Below, piece after piece: positions 256 to 45,006 of a DNA stretch of 64,000 bases (positions are counted from its first letter, which is position 1; each line of letters opens with the position of its first letter). The notes under the pieces are model-generated. The model was not told the origin of the DNA. It ran no database searches and saw only the letters and a list, made by a program, of their open reading frames with translations. The stretch lies in NCBI RefSeq assembly GCF_964355755.1, contig NC_092675.1, positions 18,490,912-18,554,911 on the forward strand, given 5' to 3'. The DNA comes from Antedon mediterranea. Its lineage: Eukaryota; Echinodermata; Crinoidea; Comatulida; Antedonidae. A program made the translations under genes and the position numbers.

Positions 256-3200
256 CTTTGCTTGATACACATGACTGGAATCTGTTGGTTCCAGCTGACT
301 GTCACTCTTGGTCAATGGGTCCACCTCCTTGTTCATGACATGAAAAAAGCATGGATTGTCCAGTGAGATGGGTTTATCAATCGGAAAAGCATCTAACCAG
401 TTCATCTTAGCTTCATAAAAATCACTTGGCGTGTACATATTGCTATAGCGTCCTCTCAGTTGTAGTACATTGGCCATGGGACTAAATATAAGACACAAAA
501 GAACAAATGTATAAGTTAATGTTTAGAATACCTCCCAAAATCATTTTTTTCATTAATAGCTTGTTTTATCAGATTTATATTGTCTTATATGTATAAAGAA
601 GTATTACAGCATTAACTAATACCTAAAACATTTTTTACCATAAAATGGGTTACTTTCATGTCTCTTATGTTTGTTTTATACTTTTTTTCTTTATACTTAT
701 TTTCTTTGGAAATTAATAATATTTTATCAGAGTTAAGTAATCGGAAATACTGTAATAAAGATGTTTTAACAGAATTTATGCATGTAGCCTAGGAGAAAGA
801 AATCATGTAGTTTCACTCACTTATTGATGACATGTCGAGCTATTTGAACAATATATCTTGGTGTTGCCCTGCGTGTCCTACGAGGTGATCGACGTGGAGA
901 CCTAGAACGCCGTGGTGAGCGAGATCGCTTCCTCACTGGAGATCTTTCTCTCCGCGGCCGTTCTCTTTCCCTGGGGCGATCACGGTGTTCATCTCTCCGT
1001 TCTTCACGCCTGAAGCTCTCTCGTCTACGTGACGGTTGGTTGCTTTGTAAGTTTCGCGAGTTTTGCATCAAAACTGGAGAAGCTATTAACAAGTATTTAA
1101 TAAAAACTTTCAGTAATTAAAAAGTGTATGTCCAAAATATGTCAAATACATGAGAGTGAAAATGCTTAGATACTTAACAATACAGAAAACTACTATTTAC
1201 TCAATCATACATAAGCCAACTTAATTATACATTGAGACCGGTGCACAAAAGAGATTTAATAAATTGTAAAGAATGTTTCATATTTAAAAAACATAATTTA
1301 AAAATATTGTGGTGTAACACACGTACAATGTGTGTGTATGTGTGGGAATCATGAGCTTAATTTGAGCAAAGAATTAACACTACAGTAGCTTGATATTTTG
1401 TTTGGCCTTCTGTCTTAAGTTAAGTTATATATTCAGAGTGGAGTTGTGGCTTGGTGGTTATGATGCTTGGCTACCACTCCAAGGGTCCTAGGTTCAAGGA
1501 CAAAATTACAACGCCACTCCCAAAGACTTAATAAGATTTTGTTTATGTAGAGCATCTTGTGTATATGTTTGTTGTGTAAACCTCCGAGTGTCTCTAATGA
1601 TCAGCAATTGCTCAATATGGTAAAAAAAATACATTTAAGAGAGAGGGAAAGACAATAAAATATTATTAATCAGTCCAGAGGCTATGTTCAAACACTGCCA
1701 ATCATATCAAACTAAATAAAAAAAAGTGACCCACTCGATAGGAGTGGTTGTGCTTGCTTTATTTGAATTTGGACAATTGTGAAATTTTGATCTGGCATTG
1801 TGAGCCTACTGTAAAGTACTTACATCCAACTTGAGTTGAGAGAAGAGAAGGAATGTTACCAGGGTTGATTTGACCAGATCCGCCAAGACCAAGACCACGT
1901 AGAACTTGAGCATTACTTCCAACCATCGATGGACTCTAAGTAAAACAAAAAAAATGGAATGAATAAAAAAAAACTGTTACTGTTACAGTATCCACATTAT
2001 TGTGCGACTAAAACATATTTTTTATGTTCCAACAATATGCACTATTAAAAGATACAGTAACCATTAAGCTCGTTTCCACTTGGATGCAACACGATGCAAA
2101 CCCAGTGAAAGTAATTTGACCAATTACAATCTTCTGATGTTGTTTATTTTTGTTACTTACCTTCTTGATGTTCATTTTATCAAACTTGTTTTGATTTATT
2201 AAGAATTGAATCAATGCGATGGGTTATTTATTATTATCAACTAACTTGTGTTGCAATGCATCCGAGCGAGAACTAAGCACTTTTTATTGGCCAACTCGTT
2301 TGCGTTGGGTTTCTTCCTAGTGGAAACCAAGCTTTAGACTAAACTGAAGAAAAATACCGCAGCAGCAGCACAATTATGTTATGTTTCAACTAACCTGACT
2401 TGGCAACACCTGAATGCGAGTTGCATTCCATTTAAATGGCATATTTGCATTAAATGATGCTTCCACTAAAACACGGTCGTTAACCTTTGGCATAGAGCCT
2501 TTCACACAACTAGGGATAAAAAGAAATAAAAATTTAACATATAACAAGATAAATACAATTTGAGAATGTTACTGTAAAGCTCTAGATACTACTGTAAGAA
2601 ATACCACCCTTCAACTTACCTTATCTGAAAGAACACATCCTCATCGACAAAGCCGAAGGTATCATGTAATTTTGTAACTGTACCAGTGAAGACACGTTGT
2701 TTTGGTTGTGGTGTCTGACCTACCCTCTGAGTAGGGTAACTGACAGTAAGCTGACCGCCACTGCTTGCAACACCATGACCCATTGACTGCAAAAGAAAAG
2801 GCAATCCACAATGTAAGAATATGTAGGATATGCAAACAAACTGGAGAAACTGTACGATTAAAAACAAACAAAAAATTCGCATAGGGCATGTGGCGCAGTG
2901 TGTTGAACATTTGACTATTGATCATGAGTTTAAATCCAAAATCTCAATGCATTGCCTGTATAATGTAAGGATACTTTACTTACATTTGTACAAATGGGTA
3001 CTGCACTGATACTGGCTGCAACATTATGAGAGTATGTTTCCAGATGTATTTGATTCAAACATGACCGAGAGGTAATAATGTGAAGAGCATAGAGGCTTTG
3101 TGCATTAAGGGGCTATATAAGATTAGGGTACTGTTATATAACAAAATTGTTCATGATGATGTTGCAATACACTGTAGTTAATTAGGAAAGACAATACAAA

Positions 3201-3848
3201 ACCTGTAAAGAGTTCTGCTGAGCTGCCATAACTTGCTGCTGTTGAAGTTGATAAGCTGCACTAGCTTGAAGGCTAGCTGCATTCTGACCTCCCAGTGATT
3301 GTAAACTCTGCACATACCCACCAGGACCAGGTCCAAGTAAAGCTGATTGAGATTGTGTCTGTAAACTGGCTTGAGCTTGAATATAAAGACAAATTGGCAT
3401 AAAGTAAAGAATTAGTAGAGAAATAAGAATTAGTTAACTGTCAAATGTGTTAATGCCCATAATTAACAGACACACCGGCAGACCATTTTCAACAATCAAT
3501 GCCTTTAAAACAGAACTTTGTCGAGTTAAATTTCGTTTCCCTCTAACCAAATACCTTTCCCTAATCAAGAGTAAGCTTACTGTGCTTTAGAAGTATTGTA
3601 AGGAGTGTTACAATGCATCCAATATGTAGGTTGTTCGACGATTAAGCATCATTTGTTTTGATTGGAAGTGATTATTTAGTGGTTATTTTTAGTTGTTAGA
3701 AGACTAGAGAGATTACTGTACAGTATATTAGCAGGCAGAAGCAATATAATAAATATATAATAAATTACAAATTACCTAAGCCAGTCTGGCCAGCTGCCAT
3801 TGCTGCCCATGGTGGATCCTTCCTTGAACCAGCTCCAAATTGTGCCAT
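256..3848 (-). CDS. CCAR1: CCAR1 (cell division cycle and apoptosis regulator 1), N-terminal third, seven exons, partial
   Basis: CCAR1/CARP-1 is a nuclear coactivator and RNA-associated regulator of transcription, splicing and apoptosis. Exons in transcript order, each with GT/AG borders: 3776-3848, 3203-3375, 2620-2786, 2395-2509, 1824-1935, 821-1082 and 256-481. The exons total 1128 bases, 376 codons, and the phase is kept at every junction. The start reads MAQFGAGSRKDPPWAAM, like the family N terminus. Exon 2 (residues 25-82) is Q/A/L-rich. Exons 3-4 encode the S1-like/cold-shock-type domain (about residues 112-175), recognisable by QRVFTGTVTKLHDTFGFVDE and MPFKWNATRIQ. Exon 6 is rich in RS/RE dipeptides (about 230-290), and its end plus exon 7 carry the LAIKA region (ATPRYIVQ, then LRGRYSNMYTPSDFYEAKMN). 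Vertebrate CCAR1 has about 1150 residues, so SAP, DBC1-like and coiled-coil parts lie beyond the left edge. The last donor is at 254-255. Identity is recognised from family memory, not from a search. Confidence 0.93.
1436..1630 (+). repeat. tRNA-derived SINE, copy 1 (CCAR1 intron)
   Basis: The copy starts GAGTGGAGTTGTGGCTTGG and has a pol III box A-like TGGCTTGGTGG and a box B-like GGTTCAAGGAC. It continues with the family body (CCACTCCCAAAGACTT, TTTGTTTATGTAGAGCAT, GTGTATATGTTTG) and ends near an A-run at 1622-1629. The copy at 27808-28062 shares these blocks in the same order. It lies in the intron between the exons at 821-1082 and 1824-1935, opposite in sense to the gene. Confidence 0.7.
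2066..2334. mobile_element. MITE (about 270 bp) with imperfect terminal inverted repeats, CCAR1 intron
   Basis: The left end reads AGCTCGTTTCCACTTGGATG. The reverse complement of the right end reads AAGCTTGGTTTCCACTAGG. TA dinucleotides flank both sides, as in Tc1/mariner-type insertions. There is no coding capacity. Related end sequence occurs at 17640-17762 and weakly at 14860-14930. It lies in the intron between the exons at 1824-1935 and 2395-2509. Confidence 0.6.
2885..2965 (+). repeat. Decayed tRNA-like (SINE head) repeat in a CCAR1 intron
   Basis: The stretch contains TGGCGCAGTGTG, a close box A match, and about 25 bases later GAGTTTAAATCC, a degenerate box B. Neither a cloverleaf nor an intact anticodon arm is convincing, so it is read as a worn SINE head and not a tRNA gene. 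Confidence 0.35.
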
Positions 3849-4374: not shown

Positions 4375-4836
4375 ACTGCATGTAGGCCTAGGCCCTAGGC
4401 CTAGCAGAACGCCATCTCATTCACCACGAATACAGTATGTATCACTTTCTACTACTACTAGCCTAGGAGGCTATAATATAATAGTATTGTATATAGCCTA
4501 CTACTAGGCCTACTACTACTAGCAGGCTAGAGTTTAGACTAGTAGTGTAGGCCTTAGCCTAAGTAGCTAGGGCATGACTATCCGGCCTAGCTAGGAGGCT
4601 AGCTAGGCCTATATTATTATAAGATTAGCTAGGTAAGGCCAGGGGAGGTAGGCCGGGTGCCGTTGGCGTTGTTGACTAGTAGTAGAAGTAGCCCTCTACG
4701 CCTCGTACGTAAGTTAGTAGTAGTACTCTACTACACAGTAGCCTAGGCCTCCTAGCTAGCCTTGGTAGAGAGGCCGGCCTAGCTAGTAGTAGGCTAGAGG
4801 GCCTCCTCTACTACTAACTAGGCCTAGGCGGATGCT
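4375..4836. repeat. AGGCCTA / CTAGTAG low-complexity tract
   Basis: Dense overlapping copies of the palindrome TAGGCCTA, of GCTAGGCC and of TAGTAGTAG fill this stretch. The same sequence type resumes right of the neighbouring element (6725-6765), suggesting that the element inserted into a pre-existing tract. No gene is seen. Confidence 0.7.
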
Positions 4837-4842
4837 AGTCAA

Positions 4843-5040
4843 GTCGCCCCATCGCAAAGTCGCCCCATACAAAGTCGCCCCTTACACAGTCGCCCCATCG
4901 CAAAGTCGCCCCAAAACAAAGTCGCCCCTTACACAGTCGCCCCATCGCAAAGTCGCCCCAACGCAAAGTCGCCCCAACGCAAAGTCGCCCCATCGCAAAG
5001 TCGCCCCATCACAAAGTCGCCCTATCGCAAAGTCGCCCAA
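4843..5040 (+). repeat. Left terminal array, 13 units of 15-16 bp
   Basis: Units start GTCGCCCC at 4843, 4859, 4874, 4889, 4905, 4921, 4936, 4952, 4968, 4984, 5000, 5016 and 5032. The consensus is GTCGCCCCATCGCAAA, with variants ATACAAA, TTACACA and AAAACAAA in the second half. Divergence rises toward the inner end (CCCTAT, CCCAAAA). Confidence 0.9.
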
Positions 5041-6518
5041 AACGTTAAAAAATAGTTTACAATTGTGCGTAAAATGTCGCAATGATACACAAAATAACAC
5101 GGAACGTGTAGGCATAAAAGGGGAAGCCCCGCCATGTAGTCTCAGGTCACACGATCGGCACGCACCCCCATCATCAGAGTGAAAACCTCGACTAATCACT
5201 CAGCGGTCGCACTAACGTGCTATAGCTTACCAGCAGAGGGAAACCCCGTAATTACTCCGCCGTTGTCGCACTACAATGCACCATTCTGAAGATGGGGAAA
5301 CCCCGCCGGAGTTTTACGATGATATCAGTCGCGTTCGAAATCGGTCGCGTTTAATTTTGGTCGCGATAAAATGATGTTATAGGCCTACGATCTAGATTAT
5401 TTTTACTTTGGTCGATGAATATTTATTGTTATTATTAGGTCTATATTAATAATTGATTTTTGTTTTTATTTTACAGGTCAGTATGATGGGAAAGATGTGT
5501 GCCTTAAAAAAATGACAATTTGTAAACATAGTTTAAGATTATATTATTATCCAGCATAATGTCATTTGACAGTACATAATTATTTAAATGTGAAATATTT
5601 TATAGGAAACGTAGGCTGCGTCTGTGTCTTTTATTTTATATGCAACAAATTACGTAAAACAATTTATTTATAAACATTCAGTTTACTATTATTATACATA
5701 GTATTACAATGAACATTGATTATAATCCTGGAAATGCAATCTCATCATTATATCCATTATAAAATTGCATCATATCACCACTATATGTCGTAAATGATGA
5801 CGTGCGTGTGTGTATTCGTCGTACGTCTGTGTACGTATTATTCCGTGCCTCTTCACTGTCTTGTTTAATTTAAAATTAAATATACACCCGATATGAGGAT
5901 ATTTATTAGGCATGTTAATTAGAATGTTCTAAAACCAAAAGGGTTGAAAAGAATTTCTTCAGTAAAATGATCATTGTGCTGTTGAATAAAAGGCGACTCG
6001 CCATCTGAAACATTCTCTCAAACCAATCGGAGCTGCGCCTTCTGGTATCTGTTTCCTCACAGCTGCTACGTCTTTCTGCTGACCGTCGGGGATTCCCCTT
6101 TTTAAAAAACACGCACACGATACTGTACGATGGTTTTTTTCCATGGTCAAAATGTAGCGTTTTAAACTTTACTAAAATACCTGCATGTAAAACAATCATA
6201 TCGGCGATGAAATCCTTTTTTTTCCTTCATTTTGAAAAGTCATTATAAAAGTAAGACACATAACTTGTCAATAAATGCAAAATGATCAATAAGTAGCCTA
6301 TAACACTCATTGTCTTACAACACTGTTTTACAACTCATTGTCTTACAAATCTATACGAAGGCCTACACATTTATACATTTATTATATTATCCTAAAAAAT
6401 GAGCTGGTATTAGCGCGACCAAAGTAACAACGCAATCGATATCAAACGCAACCGATATGAAATAGCGTAGGCTACTACTAGGGCGGCGCTTCATAATCAT
6501 ACCGAAATAAAACCGTGG

Positions 6519-6711
6519 GCGACTTTGCGATGGGGCGACTTTGCGATGGGGCGACTTTGCGTTGGGGCGACTTTGCGCTGGGGCGACTTTGTAATGTGGC
6601 GACTTTGCGATGGGGCGACTGTGCCTGGGCGACTTTGTTTTGGGGCGACTTTGCGATGGGGCGACTTTGTATTGGGCGACTTTGTATGGGGCGACTTTGC
6701 GATGGGGCGAC
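6519..6711 (-). repeat. Right terminal array, 13 units of 14-16 bp, inverted
   Basis: GCGAC starts lie at 6519, 6535, 6551, 6567, 6583, 6599, 6615, 6629, 6645, 6661, 6676, 6691 and 6707. The reverse complement gives the same consensus as the left array, and the outermost units of both arrays agree best. Confidence 0.9.
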
Positions 6712-6876
6712 TTGACTGGATCCCGCCTAGGCTAGGCTAGGCCTAGTAGGCCTAGGCCTAGTAAACTAGGCAAATTATAGCAACAAAGTAGGCTTTATGA
6801 TTCTACAAATAATTGCAAAAGTTTAACACACAAATTCTTTATACAATTAAAATAATAAGAACAGAGAATAGCTTAC

Positions 6877-7010
6877 CAAAATTAATATTTACATCGAAAA
6901 TATAACAATGAAATGAAGAGTGGTGATGGTTTGTGAAAAGAGAAGAGCTTCTAGCAAAAAAAAAGAAAGATCACCAGTAAACCTAAAGAGGGCGGAAATT
7001 GAACTTCAAA
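6877..7010 (-). other. Candidate non-coding first exon of CCAR1
   Basis: On the minus strand a good donor (TTTTG then GTAAGC) begins at 6876, preceded by a stretch that includes TTTCCGCCCTC. If joined to the acceptor at 3887, the fold-back element at 4837-6717 would lie inside the 5' intron. There is no coding evidence and the 5' limit is arbitrary; transcript data would be needed to decide. Confidence 0.2.
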
Positions 7011-10000
7011 ACGAACAATGAAAATGGTTCATAAACCATCATGGGTGGTATAAATTAAGGAAACAGTAATAACGAAAATCAAATAAAAAAGAAATCCATT
7101 TCAGTTGATTTAAATATACTTTAATTTCTGAAAATAAAACTCAAATAAACGTTTATCCGTTTAAAATCAGTGTAATGTGCTATTAAAAAGTAGGCCTATT
7201 TATATTAACTTCAGATTTAAATCAGACTGAATAATCATCGATTTACTGAAGTTAAAGAGTGAGTTTAATATAATATATGTCAATCTAATAGTGTCAATTT
7301 CAAAAACAATAAATCTACAAAATAAAATTGAAATGTTGAACATAATTGGATTTGTTATTGATATAATTAATCGATTGTCAAACAAGTTAATTTCGTTATT
7401 GTAGACGTTTTTCTGCCATTCTTAATTTGTCAATTGCATCACGTAATACCGTACACAATTATGATTAAATACAAACTCGTGCAAAATGTGTACCATATTC
7501 TTCAATTTTGTTCAAAATTTGTATTAGATTACAGTGTATTATTTATATTTGTTTACAAAAATATCAATACAGACTAGGTCTACGTTGATGATGTGTACGA
7601 GCAATCCCCCATCATCGGTTTTACATGATGGCGCCTTCGGCAAGTCACTGAGTCTAGTAATGTTGATGATGTTGTTACGATCTGGATTGATAACTGAATC
7701 TGTCAGTTGAATGTTCATCATGCCCATTGTATTTACATTCTTTCATGTATTTCAATTATGTTAAAATACATGTCTATAACTCTCTCGTCAACCCATCTCA
7801 TCAGTATTCTTCAGTTTTGTGAATTTCATTAATCCATACGATTTGTCATACGTCACCGTCAATCAAACAATATGGGAAGAAAAGAAACAAATGTTATGTT
7901 TATCCTCTAGGATAGAGTAAGTAAGTGGGCCTGTCGTGAATAAAAGATGGCTGCAAGTAACATGACACGTAAATTATTTATAAACCCCTTAAAAATGTTG
8001 TTAATGTTTGCTGAAAAGGAAGTTTTTTGGCACATAATAGTAGTTTTTCAGTTTGAACAAAATTTGAATTGAAAAAAAAAATACAAAATTGGATTTTATT
8101 CATCCTTTTTTTTTGCTATGCAAAATGTAGAGAGAGTGACAACGGAGGGCGTGCTAGTTAATTTTCGTTCCATATTAAGATACAGATAACTCAAGATATT
8201 AATAAAGCTTTTGTGACATTATTATTTCGCCAAAAAAAAAAAAAAAAAAAAAAAATGTTCATTTCTAATTTCATTCTTATCAAAATCAATCGTAAATATG
8301 ACAGTTACCACAGGTGGTATAGCTGCTGTATTCCATTAAACATGTACAACATATAGATGTAATTTAAGCACGGCGAGTTGTCATAAATAGTAAAACCAAT
8401 TCCATATCAAATTACTGAAATTTTTATTTATTCATTTACTACTAGTTCTCTGCAAGTTATCATTTTGTTGTGTAGTCTGTATTATATTTATACTTTCGAA
8501 CGTAGATGTGTGACTTTGTTTTGTAGTCCTATAATTAAGATTATCACTGAAATAATTAAACAATAACACAAGTATAGTAATATAGTATTATAAATGAGGA
8601 TTATTCAGAATATTATAGAATTTATATTAAAAAACTCTAAATCATTTTAAATAAGAAACATTGATGGTAACTAAAAATAACCTAGCAGTTTAGTATTATT
8701 TTTTACATCTTCTTCATAATGATCATTATTATAATATCTAAATTATTAAAAAACAATTATTAGGACGACATAATAATGGTTATAATTCCAATGGAAATGC
8801 ATTTTGTGACGTATATATGATTCCTTAACTTCCTTTGTCCCATTTTGGTGTTCTGATATTGCTTTCCTAATTTTATTTTACCACCCCTCCACCACCCCCT
8901 ACTCTGAGCAATATAGAAAATATTCGATATTCGACTATATCCAATTATAAACATTAAACATTTTCTAAAACAAATTAATTTTGTAAAACACAGTCTTAAT
9001 AACATTTTTAGCCGATCATTCAAATCCATTCATCAATTTATCTTATGCAGATCCGGTGTTGAACTTTCCAAAAAAATTTAAAGAAAATGAATGCAGAAAA
9101 CTCCCGACGCCATTTCAACATTCTAAAAATAAGTGTTATATGATGCTCTTGTTTTTATATATTTACATATGTTGTAATTTTCCATTAATTATATTTGTTA
9201 ATTCAAATTCCAGGTAGTATCCAGTTGTAATGACAATACATTTTATATTATCTCAATCATTTAGTATTTTTATGATTGATATGTAATTGGGTTAAACATT
9301 GAACAAAATATTATTGTTATAAGTACATGCACATTTCTGGGTGAATGACATGTAATGGACATAACATTAGTGATGCCTTCCTACCACCAAGGCCTCTTAA
9401 TAATGTTTTATTGAATGTTACCAAAACATAAACTTACAATGATGAAATGAGCTAACGATCAACCTCACTGAACTGGAAATGTTATGGCGGAAAACGTGAC
9501 TCGTCAAAGATAATGAGATGGGAGGATAGCTAATTATGTCTTCAATCTTGTTTTAATAATTTTATATTCCGGCAATTAACTGTTGTAGTTTTTGTCAACA
9601 AACGGAGAAAGAATTTCTTCATTCTTGTTTTCACTAAACATATTGAAATAATTTGATTGGATTATTGTGTTATGTTACTTGTTATTTTTTTGTGCATATT
9701 TTTAACAAACAAATGTATTTGGATTTTGTGGGAAGTATCCTGGTCTATCCAATCTAAGGCAAAATATAAAATGTTCATTTACAACATCAACAACATCTGT
9801 ATACATGTTTAAATAGGCCTAACTGTATTTGTTAATCGTTGAACTATTTTTTATTTAATTAATTTCTTCTTCTGAAACAATCAAACATGTTTTTTAAAAT
9901 TTCTTCTATAAACATTATTATTTGTTATTTCTTCCAATTTTCAAAACCCCAATTTTCTGAAAAACAATTTTTCCTATTCCAATGGATGAAGGAACATCCT

Positions 10001-12653: not shown

Positions 12654-14450
12654 TAAAATAAATAAAATATTAAATAAATTTAAAGACAAAAACCCTAAAG
12701 CAGCATGGAAAGCAATTAAAACACTAACCGGCTACAAAGAAACCATATTGCGTGTACATGGAAGTGAGAACTTCGCTAATGACTTAAACAACTTTTTCTG
12801 TCGTTTTGAATCCGAGATATTAGTTACCAAAAATGAAAATGAAGACACAGAAATCCACGAAAATGAGACTTCATTAGTAAACAATGCAGTCATAAATGTA
12901 GTTGATGTGCGTAATGTATTCGCCAAAGTAAAGCTTGGTAAAAGTACTGGCCCTGATGGAATTGGAAATCGTGTTATTAAATACTGCAACCAAGAGTTGG
13001 CACCGATATATACCAAACTTTTTAATGAGAGTTTAGCAAGTGGTACAGTGCCCAATCAATGGAAACGGCATGTATCTCACCTATTCCTAAGATAAAAAAT
13101 CCCAAGGAACTTAATGACTATAGGCCAATAGCTATCACATCCAATGTTGGTAAGTGCCTAGAAAAAATTGTACTTAGGCAGTTGCTTGATCAGACCAAAT
13201 TGTTTCTCGATCCTCTCCAATTTGCCTATCAGAGTAATAGAAGTGTTGAAGATGCTGTGCTCTTCCACTTACATAATATTTACCAACATTTAGATGTGCC
13301 TAAATCATATGTAAGATGTTTGTATATAGATTTTTCTAGTGCTTTTAATACCGTTGAACCTGGTTCATTAGTACGCAAACTTAAAGAAATGAACGTAAAC
13401 GACACATTGACTTCATGGATATATAATTTCTTAACAAAAAGGTTCCAGTATGTTAAACTAAACGGTATTTTATCTGATAAAAGAACTGTTAGCATTGGCA
13501 CGCCACAAGGGTCTGTTATCTCCCCAATGTTGTTTTCACTGTTCACCAGCAGTTTCAGAGCCAATTCAAATGAATGTTGTATAGTAAAATATGCAGATGA
13601 CACAGTCATCACTGGATACATTACTGGCAATGATGAAACAAGCTATAGACAACTAGGATGTGATTTTTATCACTGGTGCTGCAATAACAACCTGAAACTA
13701 AACATAAAGAAAACAAAAGAAATGCAAATTGATTTTAGGAAAATTAAAGAACCCTTAGAACCTCTGATTATAAATGAAAATGAGATTGAAGTAGTAAATG
13801 AGTACAAATATCTGGGTTGTATAATTGACAATAAGCTAAATTGGATAAATAATGTAAATAAAGCCACATGCAAAGCCAACCAAAGGATGTTTATTTTAAG
13901 AAAAATGAAGTACCTACAAATTGACAAAACTATACTTAAATTGTTTTATAACTCTGTAATTCTCAGTGTAATACTTTTTTGTAATGTTTGTTTCTATGGT
14001 AATACAATGCAAAAAGATAAAATTAAACTTAATCGAATAGGAAATAGAGCAATTAGACTAGTAGGAGAGCACTTACCTGATGTTGAATCCTTGTATAAAG
14101 AAAATGTGTTAAAAAAAGTAAAAAGTATCATTGATGATGAAACACATCCTCTTCACAAACAATTTGCTCTCATGAATTCTGGCATAAGACTACGTGCACT
14201 TAATACCAAAACAAAACGGTTTAGGTGCTCGTTTGTACCTAATGCTATACACTTATATAACTCCAGAGTACAAAGGTAAAATGTAACCGATAATTTTTAT
14301 CTAATTTTAACAATTTTTAGCCTCTTAACTTTTTGTGTGTGTTTTTGTAAATTGTATTTTATATTTTTGTATTTTGCCAGTTTTCAAATCACATTTCTGT
14401 TTTTTAAATGGACAATAAAGTATATATGACTATGACTATGACTATGACTA
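12654..14450 (+). mobile_element. 5'-truncated non-LTR retrotransposon (CR1/L2/Rex1 group)
   Basis: Reverse-transcriptase coding sequence starts abruptly near 12655 and runs to a stop at 14277-14279. It is followed by a short 3' UTR with AATAAA at 14414-14419 and a tail of TATGAC hexamer repeats (about 14425-14450), the kind of short tandem 3' end typical of this group. No endonuclease domain is present, so the copy is truncated at the 5' end, as is usual for target-primed insertion. AGTAAA occurs at 12648-12653 and again at 14450-14455, a possible but short target duplication. Confidence 0.85.
12661..14279 (+). pseudogene. Reverse transcriptase domain, frameshifted
   Basis: The frame open from about 12661 through 13060 carries the upstream RT region (KNPKAAWKAIKTLTG, then KLGKSTGPDGIGNRVIKYC). 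It shifts at about 13055-13070 into the frame that continues to 14279. The second frame carries ISPIPKIKN, NDYRPIAITSNVGKCLEKIV, YIDFSSAFNTV, IGTPQGSVISPMLFSLF, VKYADDTVITG with the catalytic YADD intact, and the downstream NLKLNIKKTKEMQIDFRK typical of CR1/L2/Rex1 elements. One frameshift, the missing 5' half and no endonuclease make it a dead copy, although the catalytic core reads cleanly, so it is not very old. Clade assignment is from motif recognition only. Confidence 0.85.
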
Positions 14451-38076: not shown

Positions 38077-38621
38077 GTCGTGCCCACAGATGGTTCTCGA
38101 ATACACAGTATTTCCAGCGAGAAAAAAATGGAGATTTCAAATGTACGTATACCGCAGGACTATAATACATTGTCGTTTACAGAAACGAATAAATATACAC
38201 AATGATTTATGTAGTCAACCAAAATTAGCACCCTGGGAATTACTTCCGAGAGAGAAACAAAATGAGTCAAATTTTTTTATTTGGACTCATTTAAACAAAC
38301 CCAATTTGTGTTTTGTATGTAACATTAAGGGTTGAGGGATGGGGGAAGAAGATAGGTACAAAGAGGAAACATTTTAAAATATATTCTTATCCACTCAGTA
38401 ACGAAATATTGTTTTTAATGTTTTATAGGCCTATAAATAATATACCACTAAATACAGTAAAACATTTACGATTTAATACGGTACTTTGTTAAAACTCTCA
38501 CTGTCATAGTCGATTGAAATAGTAAAGTACATGTAACGATACACCACTACGACGTTTATATATTTTTAAATTATTAATTAATACAAACGTTGAGAAGCAA
38601 CTGTCAGTATTAACGTTTATT

Positions 38622-39407
38622 TATTTGTATATTATATGTTTATAATCTAACAGTAGGGCCTACCCACACTCACAGTAATAAAGTTTATTTGTATATATTT
38701 TTATATTACATCTAACAGTACCAACACTCACAGTAAGAAATTTGCGATTCAAATTGCGATCAAAAGTGGTTAATACCATAACAGTATTGTACAGCATTGC
38801 AATACTATTTATGTTTATTCTCCAAGGGGGCCCATAAATCTAAATCTATACCTCTATGGTTAAACCAAATAATTTGGAATGTTTATTTGTATATTATATG
38901 TTTATAATCTAACAGTAGGGCCTACCCACACTCACAGTTATAAAGTTTATTTGTATATATTTTTATATTACATCTAACAGTACCAACACTCACAGTAAGA
39001 AATTTGCGATTCAAATTGCGATCAAAAGTGGTTAATACCATAACAGTATTGTACAGCATTGCAATACTATTTATGTTTATTCTCCAAGGGGGCCCATAAA
39101 TCTAAATCTATACCTCTATGGTTAAACCAAATAATTTGGAATGTTTATTTGTATATTATATGTTTATAATCTAACAGTAGGGCCTACCCACACTCACAGT
39201 AATAAAGTTTATTTGTATATATTTTTATATTACATCTAACAGTACCAACACTCACAGTAAGAAATTTGCGATTCAAATTGCGATCAAAAGTGGTTAATAC
39301 CTTAACAGTATTGTACAGCATTGCAATACTATTTATGTTTATTCTCCAAGGGGGCCCATAAATCTAAATCTATACCTGTATGGTTAAACCAAATAATTTG
39401 GAATGTT
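38622..39407. repeat. Threefold 262-bp tandem repeat
   Basis: Three head-to-tail units start near 38622, 38884 and 39146 and end exactly at 39407 (786 bases in total). Only a handful of substitutions separate them (for example AATAAAG against TTATAAAG, CCATAAC against CTTAAC, CTCTAT against CTGTAT). Each unit also contains an internal, more diverged duplication of a segment of about 65 bp (TTTATTTGTATAT through ACTCACAGTA). No coding frame runs through it. Confidence 0.9.
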
Positions 39408-43386: not shown

Positions 43387-43434
43387 AGGTGAAATATCCA
43401 TCAGCAATACTCGACCCAATTTGTTAAGAACAAG
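43387..43434 (+). other. VAChT 5' UTR adjacent to the ATG, with splice acceptor
   Basis: TTTTTGTTACCTTTCAG ends at 43386, a strong polypyrimidine acceptor 48 bases before the start codon. A spliced non-coding leader fits the VAChT family, whose 5' exons are often shared with ChAT. Confidence 0.6.
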
Positions 43435-45006
43435 ATGGCGTCTTTACACGAAGTAGGTTCGGGCATTGGAGACCGGATTACAGCATTCATAGAACGTCTC
43501 CGTGAACAAGAAAATCAACGACGTATTATTCTTGCAATCGTATGTGTTGCGCTGCTACTGGACAGTATGCTTTATGTGGTTATTGTTCCGATTATTCCGG
43601 ACTATTTGCGAAGTGAGTGGGACGGTAAAGGATCAGACGATTATGGAGATTCCAACAACACCGATGATAAAAGCGGTGCTAAAATTGGATTCTTATTTGC
43701 ATCAAAAGCGATTATTCAATTGATTGTTAACCCATTTGCTGGAACTCTGATTGACAGAGTTGGATACGATATTCCAATGATCATAGGGCTCATAGTCATG
43801 TTTCTGGCAACTTTGGTTTATGCATTTGGAAAAACTTACGGCATTTTGTTTTTTGCTCGAAGCCTCCAAGGAATTGGCTCAGCATTTGCATATTCTTCTG
43901 GATTAGCTATGATTGCTGACCGATACCAAAGAGAAGAAGAGCGTAGTAAGGCAATGGGAATTGCATTAGCCTTCATGTCTTTTGGGTACCTTGTTGCTCC
44001 GCCATTTGGGGGTATATTCTATGAATTTACGGGTAAAAAAGTACCGTTCATTATTCTAGCGTTTGTTGCCCTCTTTAACGCAACGTTATTGTTAACCGTC
44101 ACAAATCCGTCTGCTACAAACCGTCATTGGACAAAAGAGAAAGGAACACCGATTTATAAACTAATTTTAGATCCTTACATTCTTGTAGCAGCGGGAGCGC
44201 TTACCATGAGTTACGTACCTTTAGCTTCACTTGAACCAACCATAGCACTTTGGATGGAAGATACGATGCACGCATCAAGTTGGCAAAGTGGAATAATATG
44301 GTTGCCTGCTTTTATACCCCACGTTATTGGTGTGGTAATTATTGTAAAGTTAACTCAAAAGCGACCAGAGTACCAGTGGCTGTACGCTGCAACGGGGCTG
44401 GTTGTAATTGGCATATTTGTCGTGATAGTACCCTTCTGCAAGACGGTTGGTGTGCTAATTATTCCACTTTGTGGAATATGTTTCGGTATTGCGTTAGTCG
44501 ACACGGCAGTACTGCCAACTCTCGCGTTTCTTGTTGACGTTCGTCACGTTTCTGTTTACGGCAGCGTTTATGCGTTGGCCGATATATCCTATTGTATTGC
44601 ATATTTTCTTGGGCCTATTTTGGCTGGACAGATAGCTGCAGGAGCAGGGTTTCTTACAATGAATATATGCTTAGCTCTGGCAAGTTTTATTTATGCTCCA
44701 GTTTTATTTTCACTTCGCAAGGTTCATTATATGACACCGGTACACCAAGAAGTTACGGTACTACTAAGCGATGATCCCCTAGGAAACCAATATCGGGCTA
44801 CTGATTCAGAATATGGTAATAACATAACTAACCAAACACAAGATACTGCGTATGCTCCACAACCCAATGGCTACTACCCTCCTAATAAACAGAATGGTAA
44901 CACAGTTGCCGGACAAGCAGAACAAGCTCCAACACGAATAGAAAACGAGAACTTTCATCACAGGCGAATCTCACGAAGCGAAGGCAATGGATCTGATCAC
45001 GAATAG
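43435..45006 (+). CDS. SLC18A3: Vesicular acetylcholine transporter (VAChT, SLC18A3 / unc-17), intronless
   Basis: This SLC18 major-facilitator antiporter exchanges luminal protons for cytosolic acetylcholine to load synaptic vesicles in cholinergic neurons. The protein has 523 residues, near the usual family length, with twelve membrane segments expected. Diagnostic stretches are LLLDSMLYVVIVPIIPDY in TM1 (D43), IGFLFASKAIIQL in TM2 (K91), RSLQGIGSAFA, ALAFMSFGYLVAPPFGG, GIIWLPAFIPHVIGV (W289), GIALVDTAVLPTLAFLVDV in TM10 (D356, D368) and VYGSVYALADISY (D383). The run from the TM10 aspartate through SVYA-ADISY is almost unchanged in vertebrate VAChT and separates it from VMATs. The first luminal loop is short, with one sequon at N74. 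The C-terminal cytosolic tail has a dileucine, L443-L444 in VTVLLSDDP, at the place of the family's endocytosis signal. The single coding exon fits a gene nested in a ChAT intron. The ATG follows directly on a spliced leader and no earlier in-frame ATG lies in that exon. Confidence 0.95.
   Translation: MASLHEVGSGIGDRITAFIERLREQENQRRIILAIVCVALLLDSMLYVVIVPIIPDYLRSEWDGKGSDDYGDSNNTDDKSGAKIGFLFASKAIIQLIVNPFAGTLIDRVGYDIPMIIGLIVMFLATLVYAFGKTYGILFFARSLQGIGSAFAYSSGLAMIADRYQREEERSKAMGIALAFMSFGYLVAPPFGGIFYEFTGKKVPFIILAFVALFNATLLLTVTNPSATNRHWTKEKGTPIYKLILDPYILVAAGALTMSYVPLASLEPTIALWMEDTMHASSWQSGIIWLPAFIPHVIGVVIIVKLTQKRPEYQWLYAATGLVVIGIFVVIVPFCKTVGVLIIPLCGICFGIALVDTAVLPTLAFLVDVRHVSVYGSVYALADISYCIAYFLGPILAGQIAAGAGFLTMNICLALASFIYAPVLFSLRKVHYMTPVHQEVTVLLSDDPLGNQYRATDSEYGNNITNQTQDTAYAPQPNGYYPPNKQNGNTVAGQAEQAPTRIENENFHHRRISRSEGNGSDHE

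Follow-up and report, generated by a model that had tools for sequence, protein, structure and literature searches.

A probably non-autonomous transposon family with fold-back (TU-like) ends in the crinoid Antedon mediterranea

We analysed a 64,000-nucleotide stretch of the A. mediterranea genome (contig NC_092675.1), referred to below as the window, in which two arrays of short tandem units lie in opposite orientation, upstream of CCAR1-like exons on the minus strand. The question raised by this locus is whether the arrays are the ends of a mobile element, as a first-pass annotation proposed, or a satellite that was rearranged in place, and, if they belong to a mobile element, which enzyme moves it. 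The proposal of a fold-back transposon is borne out by further copies with the same ends elsewhere in the genome, by precise boundaries at which 8-bp target duplications stand, and by empty sites. We place the probability that this is a DNA transposon of the cut-and-paste type, non-autonomous and with fold-back (TU-like) ends, at about 0.93; its movement presumably takes place in trans.

Limits, copies and target sites of the element

The copy in the window (Table 1) carries the exact 8-bp target duplication GCCTAGGC on both flanks. Its earlier limits, 4837-6717, were 7 bp too short at each end because the reader had halted where both ends turn identical; the duplications lie directly outside the corrected limits. 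The outermost seven bases are unlike between the ends (GGATGCT at the left and GGGATCC at the right, read inward), and the two end sequences of the family are GGATGCTAGTCAAG and GGGATCCAGTCAAG.

Table 1. Coordinates of the fold-back element and neighbouring features in the window.
Feature	Position	Strand	Remarks
S1-like domain ORF	2619-2921	-	PF14444, E 9.8e-13
Left target-site duplication GCCTAGGC	4822-4829	.	
Fold-back element, window copy	4830-6724	+	1,895 bp (C6:18495741-18497635); left end GGATGCT to right end GGATCCC
Left terminal heptamer GGATGCT	4830-4836	+	Exact in 32 of 34 distinct copies
Left array	4842-5038	+	13 units, consensus AGTCGCCCCATCGCAA; Tandem Repeats Finder 4841-5038, period 16, 12.6 copies
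Core, common to other copies	5039-6516	+	
Longest minus-strand core ORF	5918-6226	-	103 aa
Right array	6517-6713	-	13 units, opposite orientation; Tandem Repeats Finder period 16, 12.6 copies
Right terminal heptamer GGATCCC (inward GGGATCC)	6718-6724	-	Exact in 34 of 34 distinct copies
Right target-site duplication GCCTAGGC	6725-6732	.	
Proposed CCAR1 5' exon	6877-7050	-	Sole support, TTG/GTAAGC donor at 6876; end coordinate guessed

The search for other copies with the same ends, suggested with the original proposal, was carried out on 354 Mb in 18 contigs. Genome-wide, a 28-base end is found in exact form 306 times (152 forward and 154 reverse; positions listed for 100) against 0 occurrences of a reversed-pattern control, which excludes chance. 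Judging from these numbers, some 150 copies may have two intact ends, and the genome holds about 150 or more copies in all. A DNA search gave 434 rough candidates for the left end and 411 and 372 for the two core halves, and the best 40 of each were scored, so that the copies read lean toward the well-preserved ones. The sample consists of 41 regions (40 fetched regions and the window); in 34 of them, with 35 elements since locus L017 has two, both ends are present and carry no more than two changes. Of these 35 elements, 28 have the same 8-mer on both flanks, or 27 of 34 independent ones, as locus L008 equals L006 including its flanks (1,140 bp, 100%). The two 8-mers are one base apart in L013 and L056 and do not match in register in five of the 35 (L010, L014, L046, L047 and L050), with L046 matching after a one-base shift. 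L044, in which the 8-mers are identical and the right end has an additional partial unit, was left outside the 35, and the duplication count also leaves aside L049, L052, L058, L059, L061 and L062, whose second end was not matched in the fetched stretch. The family is made up, as expected of fold-back elements, of dispersed copies with target-site duplications. In L017, the two copies lie in tandem and the 8-mer GTATCATC is present three times; one copy seems to have entered precisely where the other has its target duplication. At L086:60-160, a very short derivative has only about 100 bp with two forward units and three reverse ones.

The insertions at L006, L008 and L054 are 12 bp apart in copies of a single host sequence, L054 being the paralogue in which the element sits at this distance from the L006 position. 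We joined the L006 flanks with one 8-mer removed, which places the junction at position 60 of the query, and judged the matches from their alignment coordinates. Among the 41 matches listed, 21 cover the query from position 1 to at least 107 uninterrupted, seven of them at 89% identity or more; the others are partial matches, filled sites or reverse-strand matches. On these alignments, uninterrupted and apparently empty paralogous sites exist for one insertion. A local inversion or amplification of a satellite with no insertion, which would account for two tandem arrays in opposite orientation, is effectively excluded by hundreds of dispersed ends in other copies, precise boundaries with target duplications, and empty sites.

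The family has moved recently. Not one of 2,013 bp differs between L015 and L045, and the two have different target duplications and flanks, which points to recent movement. L014 and L020 likewise agree at each of 2,039 aligned bases, ignoring a gap by which L020 is 28 bp longer, and the identity of L055 to L057 is 99.9%. The 19 copies that measure 1,890-2,150 bp have a mean pairwise identity of 0.968 with gaps ignored, and within this set the nearest relative of the window copy is L047 (98.3% of aligned bases). Relative to L047, the window copy is without about 215 bp at about position 6410, near the right array.

With regard to the host gene, we take the S1-like domain ORF in Table 1 to be a CCAR1 exon; further minus-strand ORFs at 238-522, 820-1116, 2389-2568 and 3185-3433 are presumably CCAR1-like as well, and no Pfam match was found in the first two of them. 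An insertion of the element into a CCAR1 5' intron is plausible from the sequence and hinges on the putative exon ending at 6877. The GTAAGC donor of that exon is one of 11 GTAAG sites listed on the same strand between 2,000 and 9,000. Elsewhere, the window contains a reverse transcriptase ORF (13029-14276; PF00078, E 2.2e-32), three copies of a 262-bp tandem unit that are 99% alike (38620-39407), and an open frame of 537 codons in which a major facilitator domain is recognised (43393-45003; PF07690, E 4.8e-43).

Structure and descent of the terminal arrays

The first-pass annotation had described thirteen units of 15-16 bp at each end in opposite orientation. Number and orientation hold; when the arrays are cut at every AGTCGCC-type start, the units of the window copy (AGTCGCCCCATCGCAA or close variants) measure 13-16 bp at the left and 14-16 bp at the right, a wider range than first given. 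The two arrays are inverted copies of each other and 93% complementary over stretches of 106-108 bp. Counted by eye, 44 bases are identical between the arms of the window copy from AGTCAAG inward, in agreement with the 45 or so noted before. In a predicted fold with a 10-base spacer, the arms pair nearly end to end, with about -412 kcal/mol for either strand. Long inverted ends built from short direct tandem units are the structure by which fold-back elements are recognised.

Unit number, whose comparison between copies had also been proposed, is nearly constant. Among 34 distinct copies, the left array has 13 unit motifs in 21 and 12 in seven (range 2-16), and the right array has 12 in 18 and 13 in eight (range 9-15), so that 28 of 34 left arrays and 26 of 34 right arrays have 12-13 units. 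The arms were compared in 26 copies with arms of 185-225 bp. Left and right arms inside one element are on average 92.4% identical, while between copies left arms are 98.1% and right arms 97.1% identical. In a tree of these arms, the 26 left arms fall on one side and the 26 right arms on the other with support of 100/99, the bootstrap correlation of the tree being 0.90 and not fully settled. This separation indicates that the arms have not homogenised each other in these copies, and that the element has a fixed left and a fixed right end. Near-constant unit number and separate arm descent agree with a function of the ends, but a short time since expansion predicts the same picture.

Since unit number is near constant, the arms descended separately and the outer heptamers are unlike, the 13 + 13 arrays may be thought of as a selected, direction-coded platform for a transposase rather than a drifting satellite, with the families nested in L002, L004 and L076 (described below) as convergent customers. 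We consider this idea unlikely as it stands. If it were true, several families whose fold-back or repeat-built ends consist of other short units might be customers of a similar transposase that makes 8-bp duplications.

Coding capacity and candidate transposases

The longest minus-strand core ORF of the window copy (103 aa) gave no Pfam match. Four copies, L001 (8.7 kb), L002, L003 and L004, combine pieces of the standard core with a large extra segment, which measures 1.5 kb in L003. All four were considered as autonomous copies and rejected; for L001, L002 and L004 the best interpretation is a standard element that took up a nested insertion. The insert in L002 (2051-4114; 2,064 bp) stands between two copies of TTCATAAT, and its inverted ends, 77% alike over 135 bp, are built of GCGAGGCA-type units; it represents a second family of repeat-ended elements, and a similar translated stretch was seen in L078. 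L004:244-1890 is a nested fold-back of about 1.65 kb with ACTACCCCCCGGACA-type units and arms 87% inverted over about 205 bp. For ten further ends (L078-L087, taken from the 100 of 306 positions listed) an exact partner is missing; they lead to pieces of the standard core, to other sequence or to arrays of very small size, with no transposase recognised among them. Ten ORFs (three from L078, one each from L080, L087 and L002, and two each from L001 and L003) gave no Pfam match at E 0.01, and the remaining ORFs of the unpaired ends and large variants were judged by eye. As no transposase of the family's own was found in the copies examined, its class is assigned from its ends and duplications.

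Our proposal is that a transposase made elsewhere would bind the ends, probably as many molecules, one per array unit. It would then excise the element and insert it by an 8-bp staggered cut, the resulting 8-bp duplication being observed directly. Internal deletions and nested insertions would give rise to the length variants. The core supplies nothing recognisable, and the arrays may act as many equal binding sites for the enzyme working in trans. For one Galileo element, the excerpted text of PMC3573991 places secondary transposase binding sites in the tandem repeats of the ends.

The best-surviving candidates are Merlin and Mutator (MULE) transposases, which together we regard as a tentative assignment with somewhat less than an even chance. 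GG termini and 8-bp duplications fit these two better than P, with the fit looser for Mutator than for Merlin. In the parts of PMC8101967 available to us, Merlin elements have 8- or 9-bp duplications and a conserved terminal GG, and the fold-back family has both features; most fold-back elements seem to be MULEs according to the accessible part of PMC4079207. The genome contains both kinds of enzyme, with 11 domain matches for Merlin (IS1595-type transposase) and 36 for MULE. Against them, no array was found beside the matches examined, which were six of the 11 for Merlin and 15 of the 36 for MULE (exact 7-mers and a relaxed detector; most flanks 1.5 kb), three MULE loci having one or two isolated 7-mers. 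The relaxed detector found 13 units in each of three control copies. A 16th MULE match, L041, lies 4 kb from a separate, unrelated fold-back copy. The MULE match at C3:9339044, near a fold-back end, was considered as linked to it and rejected, the two being separate elements. Five MULE matches (C2:1382286, C2:15352026, C3:9339044, C5:1627366 and C11:21020252) have the same score and a 651-aa open frame, and two of the five, L041 and L042, are 99.5% identical over 6 kb.

Duplications made by hAT elements follow a T2/A7 pattern. In the 27 duplications tabulated here, T stands at position 2 in ten and A at position 7 in nine, which does not favour hAT; the outer positions are mostly G or C (position 1 in 25, position 8 in 20).

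P elements also make 8-bp duplications, and membership of the P-element superfamily, as in Drosophila Galileo, was at first accepted for the family, with a THAP/RNase H gene as its own truncated transposase. A profile search for P-type transposases (PF21787) gave 35 matches, the best of them inside a fold-back copy at C3:13620618-13624296. This copy is 3,679 bp long, has both family ends with 12 left and six right units, and carries GTTGGAGC on both sides. A P HTH (E 6.2e-13) and an RNase H-N domain (E 1.2e-40) lie between its ends, together with a THAP domain in two pieces on separate ORFs, of which the first stays below the Pfam cut-off and the second exceeds it. The P gene matched one solved structure, P transposase 6p5a (E 3.2e-15), in an alignment that ends at residue 328 of 569, which indicates that the gene is without its C-terminal part.

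Superfamily membership was dropped on account of L089 (on C2). This element, which is separate and decayed, belongs to the same P family as the gene; its inverted ends (51 bp, 84%) start with CAAAGAACTTATAACAC, and no exact 8-bp duplication was seen around it. The similarity of L089 to the 3,679-bp copy starts at 324-326 of that copy, and the sequence common to fold-backs stops at 321-322. As P similarity starts where fold-back sequence stops, L089 places a P end inside the fold-back copy, and nested insertion is the best interpretation of the P gene. Moreover, the ends of two P families in this genome (L077 and L089) appear to start CAAAG, in contrast to the GG of the fold-back ends (GGATGCT/GGGATCC), and L075, the closest relative of the P gene, has no array in 11.5 kb. 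Of the 35 P-type matches, 12 lie in the loci examined, among which L063/L070 alone has an array, and the search for further P-containing cores was dominated by two unrelated repeats within that core. The one THAP/RNase H gene found between family ends reads as nested rather than native, and we now regard P-superfamily membership as improbable.

Most likely, the P gene in the 3,679-bp copy is a nested, truncated P insertion and not the fold-back family's own, a reading based on sequence comparison that cannot be closed because the right P end is gone from this copy. A P element would have inserted into the fold-back first; a deletion reaching from the RNase H exon to within the right array would have followed, there or during a later move, and this order is our inference.

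Some other P-type loci deserve mention. L065, L066 and L067, on three contigs, are more than 99% identical over 3.4 kb, each with a 794-aa open frame, and represent either a recently moved P family or a recent duplication. L076:3640-4521 is an 882-bp inverted structure (89%) of 14-bp units TGAATGAAATGTTT with GGAACGCC at both ends; it directly adjoins a P-type transposase ORF, and no matching duplication was seen around it. L075:3120-3540, inside an old P-element copy, bears an apparent resemblance to a 5S rRNA-derived SINE.

Comparison with known fold-back elements

TU elements of sea urchin, said to go back to Liebermann et al. in 1983, have inverted ends with an outer domain of about 15-bp tandem units and an inner, non-repetitive domain, and make 8-bp target duplications. 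PMC4079207 cites that 1983 work. To our knowledge, fold-backs of the TU type have been known for decades and were never assigned to a transposase. The TU-like label given to the window copy at first reading fits this architecture with respect to the long inverted ends of about 15-bp tandem units and the 8-bp duplication, the label being one of architecture. As to an inner domain, L020 has a weak inverted match between its own halves (67% over 143 bp), and nothing comparable was found in the window copy.

In a limited literature search we found no paper on this family, which we take to be a new one of a kind already known. Being young, with identical copies at different sites, it is good material for finding the TU-type transposase. 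The nested P gene serves as a warning that a transposase between fold-back ends need not belong to them.

Among elements of other lineages, Galileo (P superfamily, Drosophila) has fold-back ends with internal tandem repeats, as here; it differs, in the excerpt of PMC3573991, in that its duplications measure 7 bp and it encodes its own P-type transposase, as against 8-bp duplications, GG termini and a nested P gene in the A. mediterranea family. Merlin shares the terminal GG and, with 8-9-bp duplications, the target-site length (PMC8101967, in the portion consulted), whereas the array is absent at the six of 11 Merlin matches examined. Tetris of Drosophila virilis is alike in being a non-autonomous fold-back with 8-10-bp duplications for which no transposase was found, as the available part of PMC4079207 has it. 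There it is given three structurally complete copies and ends of up to 1,735 bp, whereas the family described here has many near-identical copies with arms mostly of 207 bp.
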